A DNA stretch of 64,000 nt from Sphingomonas sp. ATCC 31555 (GTDB taxonomy: Bacteria > Pseudomonadota > Alphaproteobacteria > Sphingomonadales > Sphingomonadaceae), in the NCBI RefSeq assembly GCF_000282895.1, contig NZ_ALBQ01000002.1, positions 1-64,000 on the forward strand. Direction: 5' to 3'. A program made the translations under genes and the position numbers. The notes below the pieces were generated by a model. It searched no databases, was not told the origin of the DNA, and saw only the letters and a list, made by a program, of their open reading frames with translations. This document shows positions 21,975-24,115 of the stretch, piece by piece (the first letter of the stretch is position 1; each line of letters opens with the position of its first letter).

Positions 21975-23111
21975 ATGAAACAGCGTGCAATGATCGCGTG
22001 CGTTGCGCTTGCGGTGCTGGCGGCATGTGGCGGCGGCGGAACTGCTGGCGGCACCATTACGCCGCCGGCCCCGAGCCCGACACCCACGCCGTTGCCGACA
22101 CCGAGTCCTTCGTTGACGCCCGCGGCCCCGATGGCGAGCTACACCCCCGCCGCCGCGTTCCGCCCCACCGCCGGCGTGGCGATCCCTATCGGCAAGTGTG
22201 TCAACTTGGGGAATCATCTCGAGGCGCCGGTCGAAGGCGCCTGGGGACGCGCGATTGTCGACGGTGATTTCGCGATCATCAAGGCAGCCGGCTTCGACAC
22301 GATCCGCCTGCCGGTGCGCTGGTCGAACCATGCAATGGCTGCAGCGCCCTATACGATTGATGCGGCGTTTCTCGCGCGCGTGCGGCACGTGGTCGACACC
22401 GCGCGAGCTGCCAAGCTCAACGTGCTACTCAATCTTCACCATTATGACGAAATGGCCACTGCGCCCGCTGCCCATGCAGAAAGGTTTGCGATGTTGTGGA
22501 AGCAGATCGCAGCGAGCTTCGCTGACGAGCCCGAAGCCAGCGTTTGGTTCGAGCTGATGAACGAGCCCAATGGCGCGCTCAACGACAGCAACCTGCTCGG
22601 CATCCTAACCCCGGCGCTGGCGCAAGTGCGCGCGACCAATCCGACGCGCGCGGTCGTCGTCGGCGGGCAGAACTGGAGTGGGGTGTCGTCGCTGGCGACG
22701 CTGCAACTACCGGACGACCCGCGGCTGGTGGTGACGATCCACACCTATGATCCGTTCGATTTTACTCACCAGAATGCGACCTGGCTTGCCCCGGGCCGGG
22801 TGCCGCCGCTCGGACGGAGCTTCGGCAGTGCGGCCGATCTGCGCGAGCTCGACGCCAATCTGGCGGCAGTTCGCGCCTACATGCAGCGTACCGGTCGGCA
22901 GGTGTTCGTCGGCGAGTATGGCGCCAATGACGATCCTGGCGTTCCGCTGGCGCAGCGCATTCTCTATTACGGCACCGTTTCCGCCGCCTATGCGTCGATC
23001 GGAGTGCAGAGCTGCGCCTGGGCCTATGCCAACACCTTCCGACTGCGTGACGGCGCGTCCTGGCTGCCCGGCATGATGGAGGCGATCCGCACTACGACAA
23101 CGCTGCAATAG
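21975..23111 (+). CDS. Glycoside hydrolase family 5 lipoprotein
   Basis: 378-aa exported beta-glycanase. Lipobox VLAAC (Cys18), a Pro/Thr-rich linker (about 29-52), then a GH5 TIM barrel with GNHLEAPVEG, TIRLPVRWSN, acid/base Glu197 in WFELMNEPNG, HTYDPFDFTHQ and nucleophile Glu314 in VFVGEYGAND. Cellulase/endoglucanase-type activity is likely, but the family also includes mannanases. The next gene encodes another lipoprotein with a similar linker. Confidence 0.9.
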   Translation: MKQRAMIACVALAVLAACGGGGTAGGTITPPAPSPTPTPLPTPSPSLTPAAPMASYTPAAAFRPTAGVAIPIGKCVNLGNHLEAPVEGAWGRAIVDGDFAIIKAAGFDTIRLPVRWSNHAMAAAPYTIDAAFLARVRHVVDTARAAKLNVLLNLHHYDEMATAPAAHAERFAMLWKQIAASFADEPEASVWFELMNEPNGALNDSNLLGILTPALAQVRATNPTRAVVVGGQNWSGVSSLATLQLPDDPRLVVTIHTYDPFDFTHQNATWLAPGRVPPLGRSFGSAADLRELDANLAAVRAYMQRTGRQVFVGEYGANDDPGVPLAQRILYYGTVSAAYASIGVQSCAWAYANTFRLRDGASWLPGMMEAIRTTTTLQ

Positions 23112-23191: not shown

Positions 23192-23725
23192 ATGCGTTTG
23201 CTTTCCCTGCTCGCCGGTGCCGGCATCCTTGCGATTGCCGGTTGCGTGCCGGCGCCTTCGACACCGCCGCCCGCACCCGCGCCGCGACCCGTTATCGTGC
23301 CCACTCCGACGCCGTCTCCCACCCCGGCGCCGGCCGCAGATTGGCGCGACTGGCCGCTCACCCCCGGCGACTGGCGCTACCGGGCCGCTTTCTCGGGCGG
23401 CAGCGCAACCTATGGTATCGCGGGGATAACTCCCGTTGCCATCCTGCGCTGCGACCGACCGGCACGCCGCGTGACGCTCTCCCGAACCGGCACCGCGCCC
23501 GCGACCCTCACGCTGCGCACCACCAGCGCCGTCCGTGTCATTCCTGCCGCCCCGGACCCGAATATGGCCGGCATGTTAGCCCTCCACTTCCCGGCGAACG
23601 ACAGTGTCCTCGATGCGATCGGCTTCAGCCGCGGACGGTTCGTGATCGAAGGCGGGGGGCTGCCGGTGTTGGTGATACCGGCCTGGCCGGAAATCCTGCG
23701 CGTGGTGGAGGATTGCCGCCAATAG
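23192..23725 (+). CDS. Hypothetical lipoprotein with Pro-rich linker
   Basis: 177 aa. Signal peptide and lipobox AIAGC (Cys about 19), a Pro/Ala/Thr linker up to about residue 48, then a compact domain beginning DWRDWPLTPGDWRYR with two later Cys residues. The domain is not one I can name. It follows the GH5 gene by 80 bp and may be expressed with it. Function unknown. Confidence 0.65.
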   Translation: MRLLSLLAGAGILAIAGCVPAPSTPPPAPAPRPVIVPTPTPSPTPAPAADWRDWPLTPGDWRYRAAFSGGSATYGIAGITPVAILRCDRPARRVTLSRTGTAPATLTLRTTSAVRVIPAAPDPNMAGMLALHFPANDSVLDAIGFSRGRFVIEGGGLPVLVIPAWPEILRVVEDCRQ

Positions 23726-23791
23726 GACGATGTGGCTCGCCAGTTTGGCCCAGACCCCCAGAATCGCACCGATAAAAATCTTTTACAAGAC

Positions 23792-23821
23792 TTGTTCTGC
23801 GACTCAGGGTCATCCTACATG
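23792..23821 (+). promoter_or_regulatory. Candidate promoter of the 18-codon ORF transcript
   Basis: TTGTTC (23792-23797) and CTACAT (23815-23820) are spaced by 17 bases in a locally AT-richer stretch. They are a plausible but imperfect sigma-70-type pair lying about 55 bp before the mini-ORF start. Confidence 0.35.
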
Positions 23822-23873
23822 TCAAGTGTGTCGAGAGGCACAGGCTCTTCAACAAGCGAAAGGAGGTGATCCG

Positions 23874-23930
23874 ATGTCTCATGGTTCAGCAGTGAGGTCG
23901 GTTCAGTTCGTTCGGGAGACGCGCCGCTGA
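23874..23930 (+). CDS. 18-aa mini-ORF with near-perfect Shine-Dalgarno
   Basis: Reads MSHGSAVRSVQFVRETRR then TGA. Upstream is AAAGGAGGTGATCC, complementary over 14 bases to the conserved 3' end of 16S rRNA, with seven bases between AGGAGG and the ATG, which is ideal spacing. The peptide is basic, has no hydrophobic core and does not resemble an amino-acid attenuator. I know no named family. It is in a 488-bp gap and is followed by hairpins and a terminator. Confidence 0.55.
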   Translation: MSHGSAVRSVQFVRETRR

Positions 23931-24115
23931 GCTTGTCGCGCGGACGGAAGTCCTCCGTCCGTGGTGTCGTGCGGGAGGTATCCTCCTCCAACCAACGCCG
24001 GCAGCTGCAAGCAAAGCGGTCCGCATGGTCTCCCGGGCTGGAGCTCTCCGGCCGCTGACCATGTCGGGGGTCGCCGGGTACCCAGGAGTGGGGCCCGGCG
24101 GCCTCTTTCATTTTT
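23931..24115 (+). ncRNA. Structured RNA tail downstream of the mini-ORF
   Basis: Three stem-loops are visible after the mini-ORF: GGACGGA/TCCGTCC (23942-23960), GGAGG/CCTCC (23974-23986) and the terminator stem. The segment TATCCTCCTCC (23979-23989) could pair with the mini-ORF's own AGGAGG, so the tail could mask or free that ribosome site. Whether it is a regulatory RNA, a leader of the following gene or just the 3' UTR is not decided by sequence. Confidence 0.4.
24070..24115 (+). terminator. Rho-independent terminator before the GGDEF-EAL gene
   Basis: GTCGCCGGG (24070-24078) pairs with CCCGGCGGC (24094-24102), with extra CCC/GGG pairing inside, followed by CTCTTTCATTTTT. It closes the mini-ORF transcript about 100 bp before the next gene. 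Confidence 0.75.

Follow-up and report, generated by a model that had tools for sequence, protein, structure and literature searches.

In Caulobacter, the sRNA CCNA_R0051, encoded between CCNA_02253 and CCNA_02254, is described in the accessible part of one study as a 209-nt RNA with its own promoter whose level rises 4.4-fold after mitomycin C without exceeding that of stationary phase (PMC6237742), and the accessible tables of another list it as G1, with a TSS at 2404309 on the plus strand of NA1000 (PMC5988900). From its numbering and its place between these two genes, CCNA_R0051 is probably CC2171, the RNA of Rfam family RF01867. It is absent from the 18 Hfq-enriched sRNAs tabulated in the available portion of a further study (PMC11005374), and a Caulobacter Ribo-seq paper states, in its accessible text, that ncRNAs are mostly intergenic and that these are untranslated (PMC4117421), a statement that counts against translation of CCNA_R0051 unless tiny frames were missed. 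In Mesorhizobium, MH_s33, annotated as CC2171, is a 215-nt RNA-seq product, and the nine sRNAs tested there by Northern blot were picked from unannotated candidates (PMC5596092, available part). These likely relatives in Caulobacter and Mesorhizobium are transcribed. Extended Shine-Dalgarno (SD) pairing is described in Staphylococcus aureus, where 30% of initiation sites are estimated to rely on a short extension (PMC13009471, accessible part).

Here we analyze a locus in the first 64,000 nucleotides (forward strand) of contig NZ_ALBQ01000002.1 of Sphingomonas sp. ATCC 31555, a stretch referred to below as the window; the RNA of the locus is called the window RNA. Within the searchable literature, which includes few subscription papers, CC2171/RF01867 is found as table entries only. 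Among the matches listed from that literature, which probably lacks the original CC2171 report, none describes the ORF or the proposed switch discussed below, and those for sphingomonad, anti-SD and dual-function sRNAs include nothing on the window RNA. In hok-type mRNAs, fold-back of the 5′ region onto the 3′ region is inhibitory, and the start region of a tiny ORF is controlled by pairing of the 3′ part of the RNA.

Results

A small RNA gene related to CC2171

We find that the locus is a real conserved small RNA gene and a divergent relative of CC2171; sequence comparison predicts that it stands alone and occupies 23785-24115. An 18-codon ORF, a structured RNA and a terminator following a strong ribosome-binding site, as claimed in an earlier sequence-only reading, are all present at 23858-24115. 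The features are as follows.

23785-23795, + strand: palindrome ACAAGACTTGT, whose CTTG half is a -35-like element; the motif occurs in the upstream regions of relatives
23801-23805, + strand: GANTC (CcrM-type) site, here 6 nt after CTTG
23814-23820, + strand: -10-like CCTACAT, matching in position the CACATT-like hexamers of relatives
23858-23872, + strand: extended SD GAAAGGAGGTGATCC, whose 15 bases are all complementary to the 16S 3′ tail
23874-23930, + strand: 18-codon ORF MSHGSAVRSVQFVRETRR, then TGA; stop position kept in relatives
23880-23890, + strand: 5′ strand of helix H1, CATGGTTCAGC, codons 3-6, complementary to 24054-24063; class covariation and permutation test
23896-23901, + strand: H1 extension GGTCGG, codons 8-10, pairing with CCGGCC at 24048-24053 in the H1-constrained fold; codon 9 invariant
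23974-23986, + strand: GGAGG/CCTCC hairpin from local folding, containing the CCTCCTCC of the earlier reading
24024-24030, + strand: CATGGTC, which duplicates the H1 5′ strand and can pair locally with GACCATG at 24057-24063 (alternative helix)
24048-24063, + strand: 3′ element CCGGCCGCTGACCATG, the H1 3′ strand, conserved after the stop in relatives
24066-24115, + strand: intrinsic terminator

The transcript is predicted to start shortly 3′ of the CCTACAT at 23814-23820, and the RNA is presumably made in Sphingomonas sp. ATCC 31555.

The RF01867 (CC2171) model matches 23850-24023 over its full length with 39 bits (E between 9e-7 and 1.3e-5 according to the search space); because this lies below the gathering score of 75, we file the window RNA as a related subfamily of CC2171 and not as a member. 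Its 5′ block, with GAAAGGAGGUGAUCC and the start codon, is identical at 30 of the first 33 RF01867 consensus positions. RF01867 matches 34 of 61 genomes (our own and relatives), all of the same genus, with one above the cut-off, and the 20 loci fetched from these comprise eight of CC2171 type (L002-L009, 63-77 bits) and 12 of window type (L010-L021, 33-40 bits, including the window's own locus). Wherever the core pattern gave a reading, the CC2171-type loci encode MSHC peptides, whereas those of window type encode MSHGSA. At least one genome (G010) carries both types.

Of 396 genomes of the order, 268 contain a degenerate core pattern, AAAGGAGGTGRTCNRRTGTCTCAT; every match falls within our own family, and together they cover 47 of 84 genera. 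Its backwards control gave 0 among the matches listed for these 396 genomes. The conserved start region is a condition of these pattern searches, as it is of the frame counts below. Scanning named genomes returned at least 119 stretches, and the 80 matches listed are mainly from Sphingomonas, Novosphingobium, Sphingobium, Erythrobacter and kin. In a sample of 385 class genomes, 85 have an RF01867 match at E 0.001, 13 of them above the Rfam cut-off; two core patterns, with matches in 30 and 50 genomes, bring the number with relatives to 99. CC2171-like RNAs are seen in many alphaproteobacterial families (L171-L275), with 13 of the 85 matching genomes passing the Rfam cut-off. A model, R1, built from the alignment A1 described below matched 37 of 200 phylum genomes, 36 of them of the class and one outside it, some of the searched genomes having supplied its sequences and so matching by construction; its listed class misses number 15, giving 36 of 51 class genomes matched if that list is complete, as its order suggests. 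Another draw of the class gave 39 of 162 genomes. The single match outside Alphaproteobacteria (L306) has a similar, plausible layout (ATGTCGAGAGTT..., 18 codons, TAA), which suggests transfer or deeper ancestry.

The ribosome-binding site spans the 16S tail

The 14-base match to the 16S 3′ end on which the earlier reading was built, AAAGGAGGTGATCC at 23859-23872, is present and reaches 15 bases (23858-23872) with the preceding G; the spacing from GGAGG to AUG is 7. The reference end is that of Sphingomonas paeninsulae, GGCTGGATCACCTCCTTTCTAAGGA, a plasmid-borne copy (L276) and not the host's own 16S. In our own draft genome the exact 14-mer matches once, at this site, and each of six relatives likewise has a single match, so that 16S genes seem absent, masked or different in all seven. 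With up to two mismatches the 14-mer is expected 0.21 times per window by chance, and a backwards control pattern also occurs once in our own genome. A lone exact 14-mer in one genome is not beyond chance; it is conservation that makes the match real. Among 71 class relatives, the SD 15-mer is perfect in 41, has one mismatch in 19 and two in 11. Conservation in relatives, on which the sequence-only reading had staked its case, is found for both the ORF and the ribosome-binding site, and the reading stands on this point. In two class genomes (L202 and L237), a 14-15-base SD also precedes secreted-looking proteins of 56 and 55 aa; these pattern hits were excluded as ordinary small secreted proteins by their appearance.

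A 15-base tail match kept across the class, with the 14-mer occurring once in each of six relatives, is what one would expect of a decoy, that is, an RNA that titrates or masks free 16S tails and whose short frame merely releases trapped ribosomes; the 4.4-fold rise of CCNA_R0051 after mitomycin C, to a level not above that of stationary phase (PMC6237742, accessible part), also fits. Such an RNA would, however, have to be nearly as abundant as free 30S, and H1 would be left without a role, and we hold this explanation to be quite unlikely.

Start and stop are kept while the peptide varies

We find that the frame closes after 15-20 codons in all 144 unique family members (unique 66-base stretches from 158 family loci, a set conditioned on the conserved start region) and after exactly 18 in 124 of them; the corresponding probabilities under a shuffle null are 0.14 and 0.02. 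The stop at codon 19 of these 124 is TAA in 70, TGA in 40 and TAG in 14. On a tree of upstream DNA the stop type undergoes 30 parsimony changes (label shuffles: mean 44, minimum 37) and the first base of the stop undergoes none; this parsimony analysis is restricted to the 124 members of exactly 18 codons and is hence conditioned on the stop. Codons 7 and 11-18 accumulate 388 nucleotide changes on the same tree, 143, 163 and 82 at positions 1, 2 and 3, and 245 amino-acid changes. Positions 1 and 2 thus change about twice as often as position 3, the opposite of ordinary coding genes; the fewer third-position changes may reflect codon bias. Because the stop position is kept while codons 7 and 11-18 change freely, start and stop are, as judged from these comparisons, conserved and the peptide is not.

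What is conserved in the family peptide, MSHGS and the S at codon 9, coincides with H1. The class relatives (71 distinct sequences, seven of them from our own genus, frames filtered at 12-38 codons) have frames of 14-36 codons that begin with ATG (36), GTG (30) or TTG (5) and end with TGA (39), TAA (19) or TAG (13), and their peptides have hardly anything in common except Ser at the second codon (69 of 71). The 18-codon frame is probably translated. Near the end of the frame in several non-sphingomonads (L241, L258, L262 and L271) lies G(G/A)(A/G)GCA(G/A)CC, hairpin-like by eye; since its reading frame differs among these loci, it seems to be conserved as RNA and not as peptide.

The very strong SD, the conserved frame and the conserved MSHGS and codon-9 S would all be accounted for by an 18-aa peptide acting as a mini-protein, which we nevertheless judge very unlikely: the conserved codons overlap H1, the class peptides have little more than Ser in common, and the distribution of changes over codon positions (143 and 163 against 82, with 245 amino-acid changes) gives no support to peptide constraint in the synonymous versus nonsynonymous comparison that the earlier reading had proposed. 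Of its suggestion of a highly translated mini-protein or an RNA that interacts with ribosomes, what survives is an RNA suited to meet the ribosome that carries a conserved and probably translated mini-ORF; the peptide as product does not. The peptide as selected product is rejected on the free variation of codons 7 and 11-18, and a hok-like type I toxin mRNA does not fit, the listed peptides being polar by eye and variable.

The same data bear on a classical trans-acting sRNA, whose 5′ block would bind 16S tails or targets and whose frame would be incidental or untranslated. Rfam lists the family as sRNA, H1 is a constraint at the RNA level, and Caulobacter ncRNA regions are reported, in the accessible text, as generally untranslated (PMC4117421). 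The usual start spacing and the interchange of AUG, GUG and UUG (36, 30 and 5 of 71) are nonetheless hard to explain without translation, as are a frame closed in 144 of 144 members and 30 changes of stop type, and CCNA_R0051, if it is CC2171, is missing from the 18 Hfq-enriched sRNAs in the available table (PMC11005374). We regard this reading as doubtful but worth serious consideration.

A predicted long-range helix joins the early codons to the 3′ element

The near-invariant part of the frame, codons 3-6 and 8-10, is complementary to GCTGACCATG (24054-24063) and CCGGCC (24048-24053), which directly precede the terminator. The predicted helix, H1, spans +7 to +17 and +23 to +28 in the window RNA and starts at +4 in class relatives. 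Of 146 unique relatives, 140 carry GACC[AG]TG after the stop, and the remaining six have the one-base variants GCTGACCCATG or GCTGATCCATG there. Both strands are nearly invariant within our own family, and the covariation comes from other families.

We examined covariation on A1, a sequence-only MAFFT alignment of 50 of 83 candidates (38 from the class, three of CC2171 type from our own genus and nine from our own family) with a mean column identity of 36%. Over the nine H1 pairs, 75.8% of cells are paired versus 60.6 in shuffles, double-change (compensatory) cells number 71 versus 27.8, and the covariation score is 0.422 versus 0.184, none of 500 shuffles reaching the observed value in any of the three; partners slid out of register score at most 0.178. 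The count of pairs with any two-sided change, seven of nine, is matched by 138 of 500 shuffles and is uninformative. Independently of A1, duplex energies in 36 non-redundant sequences of the 71 class relatives (5′ blocks below 75% identity) average -14.2 kcal/mol for native strands and -10.2 ± 0.5 kcal/mol for permuted ones (0 of 20000 permutations), the native 3′ strand being the best partner for 8 of the 36 and among the best three for 12. An earlier strand-swap test was weak, most class sequences in it sharing one 5′ strand. These sequence comparisons indicate that H1 is backed by compensatory change across the class, and this pairing between early codons and the segment before the terminator occupies the same A1 columns and register across subtypes, including the CC2171 type. 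RNAalifold on A1 gives three other pairs, with H1 absent, and the RF01867 alignment pairs other window bases at the position of H1.

Folding places the free optimum of the window RNA at -143.8 kcal/mol and the H1-constrained fold at -141.6, 2.2 above it; a local alternative with CATGGTC (24024-24030) lies 4.5 kcal/mol above the free optimum. H1 is not chosen in the unconstrained RNAfold run on the window RNA, where its maximum pairing probability is 0.06. Its probability exceeds 0.5 in 36% of 11 Sphingomonas-type sequences, 49% of 128 family sequences (123 distinct) and all six of CC2171 type; among 51 sequences from the class searches, of which 33 are distinct and four come from our own family, the share is 67%. 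The set used for folding and for the swap test holds 196 of 226 sequences, those with a recognized terminator, and its class loci include duplicates. Among 140 relatives, 48, largely of the Sphingomonas subtype, have CATGGT or ATGGTC between the stop and the 3′ element.

In the predicted free fold of the window RNA most of the SD is hidden (accessibility 0.18); its partners there are the terminator tail and the early codons and do not include CCTCCTCC. The H1 state leaves the SD part GAGGTGAT unpaired. The earlier reading noted that CCTCCTCC can pair with the AGGAGG of the SD, as a self-mask. This element (23982-23989) lies inside the local GGAGG/CCTCC hairpin, and CCTCC occurs between stop and 3′ element in only 40 of 140 relatives, so that a conserved self-mask is rejected on both its distribution and its local folding. 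The early-codon/pre-terminator pairing is conserved and CCTCC (40 of 140) is not. The same count leads us to reject an anti-SD loop sRNA of the "cuckoo" type, that of the Rhizobiales CCUCCUCCC RNAs.

Promoter and gene context

The motif C[AT]AGNCTTG is present in 130 of 145 unique family upstream regions, 56 of which carry the perfect ACAAGNCTTGT. In these 130 regions GANTC lies 16 nt after CTTG in 74 and 6 nt after it in 15, and at the 16-nt offset it often directly precedes the -10-like CACATT hexamer of relatives. The combination of palindrome, fixed GANTC and CACATT-like box resembles a methylation-sensitive promoter with a dyad-binding regulator. By analogy with Caulobacter, we infer a sigma-70-type promoter that may be under CcrM/GcrA control. 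For CCNA_R0051, the accessible published table gives neither a CcrM site nor a GcrA peak (PMC5988900).

The syntenic neighbor is a gene that appears lipoprotein-like by eye (23192-23725); at 148 of 161 loci it lies upstream in the same orientation. It has no match in Pfam and no convincing one in NCBIfam. A GH5 cellulase-like gene (21975-23111) lies between uvrB and this gene, and among the 161 loci it is seen only at the window's own (L012). Downstream, a PAS-GGDEF-EAL gene begins on the same strand 99 bases past the terminator, and the earlier reading had pointed to this arrangement. Its proximity and orientation would suit a leader peptide or an attenuator acting on the gene that follows, and so would the fact that, at 28 of 123 loci, one type of downstream gene recurs on the same strand. 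We find, however, that GGDEF-EAL follows on the same strand in only 4 of 161 loci, that the next genes fall into 63 clusters in the 121 loci with a gene (the largest with 28 loci) and that the next gene is on the same strand in 65 of 123 loci and on the opposite one in 56, while the gene that is syntenic lies upstream (148 of 161). Because downstream genes vary in this way, a leader of PAS-GGDEF-EAL is rejected and the proposed link to that gene is not borne out; an attenuator of the downstream gene in general is extremely improbable.

Discussion

The reading we prefer, at a probability of about 0.5, is that the window RNA is a CC2171-related sRNA whose 15-base ribosome-binding site captures 30S, whose 18-codon frame is translated and whose translation opens H1. 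In this model H1 and ribosome binding would be mutually exclusive, because H1 covers +7 to +17, which the 30S initiation complex must keep single-stranded. Without ribosomes, the RNA would be closed 5′ to 3′ beside the terminator, with the SD part GAGGTGAT open as a docking site; 30S binding across the whole 16S tail would pay for melting of H1, and the ribosome would then clear the frame and depart at the stop, ahead of the 3′ element. The freed 3′ element might pair elsewhere or be attacked, GCUGACCAUG being a candidate stretch for target pairing, and in the Sphingomonas subtype the second CATGGTC could serve as its local partner and create a two-state switch. From this gating it follows that the output would lie in how the RNA is shaped, how stable it is or what it pairs with, and not in the peptide.

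A broader and more speculative form of this idea, which we think unlikely, is that of an ancient alphaproteobacterial ribosome sensor. Complementarity to the full 16S tail, a frame kept only at start and stop and a covarying 5′-3′ helix would together report free 30S, the RNA being open when translated and closed when ribosomes are scarce; in sphingomonads the second partner strand would make it bistable, and a promoter that often has a fixed GANTC would couple it to the cell cycle.

An Rfam family filed as a small Caulobacter sRNA is thus spread over Alphaproteobacteria with the layout of a translated switch, namely a strong start and a kept stop around a freely varying peptide, together with a helix that is backed by covariation and whose formation would compete with initiation. 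Should the preferred reading be true, selection keeps the act of translation and not its product in a stand-alone small RNA, which would offer a direct handle on how ribosome availability is sensed in alphaproteobacteria.

Compared with known systems, the window RNA is closest to CC2171, with which it shares the UCAACAAnCGAAAGGAGGUGAUCC block, the start codon, the UCU second codon and the long-range helix between early codons and the pre-terminator segment. It differs in having 18 codons and MSHGS where CC2171 has mostly 22-26 codons and MSHC, and in the insert with a CATGGTC copy in the Sphingomonas subtype, and CC2171 has so far been described as non-coding. Extended SD initiation in S. aureus, as presented in the accessible part of the report, resembles it in a start-proximal extension of SD-antiSD pairing and in small ORFs (PMC13009471), whereas here one RNA per genome examined spans the entire 16S tail. 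The Rhizobiales CCUCCUCCC anti-SD loop sRNAs (PMC3927594) and Caulobacter SisA-D (PMC12559287), as far as the available parts of these papers describe them, resemble the window RNA in that it contains a CCTCCTCC, but CCTCC is unconserved in the window family (40 of 140) and the conserved element is the SD, not an anti-SD. As in hok mRNAs, the start region of a tiny ORF would pair with the 3′ part of the RNA, but the window RNA encodes no hydrophobic toxin peptide and carries an exceptionally strong SD in place of a hidden one.
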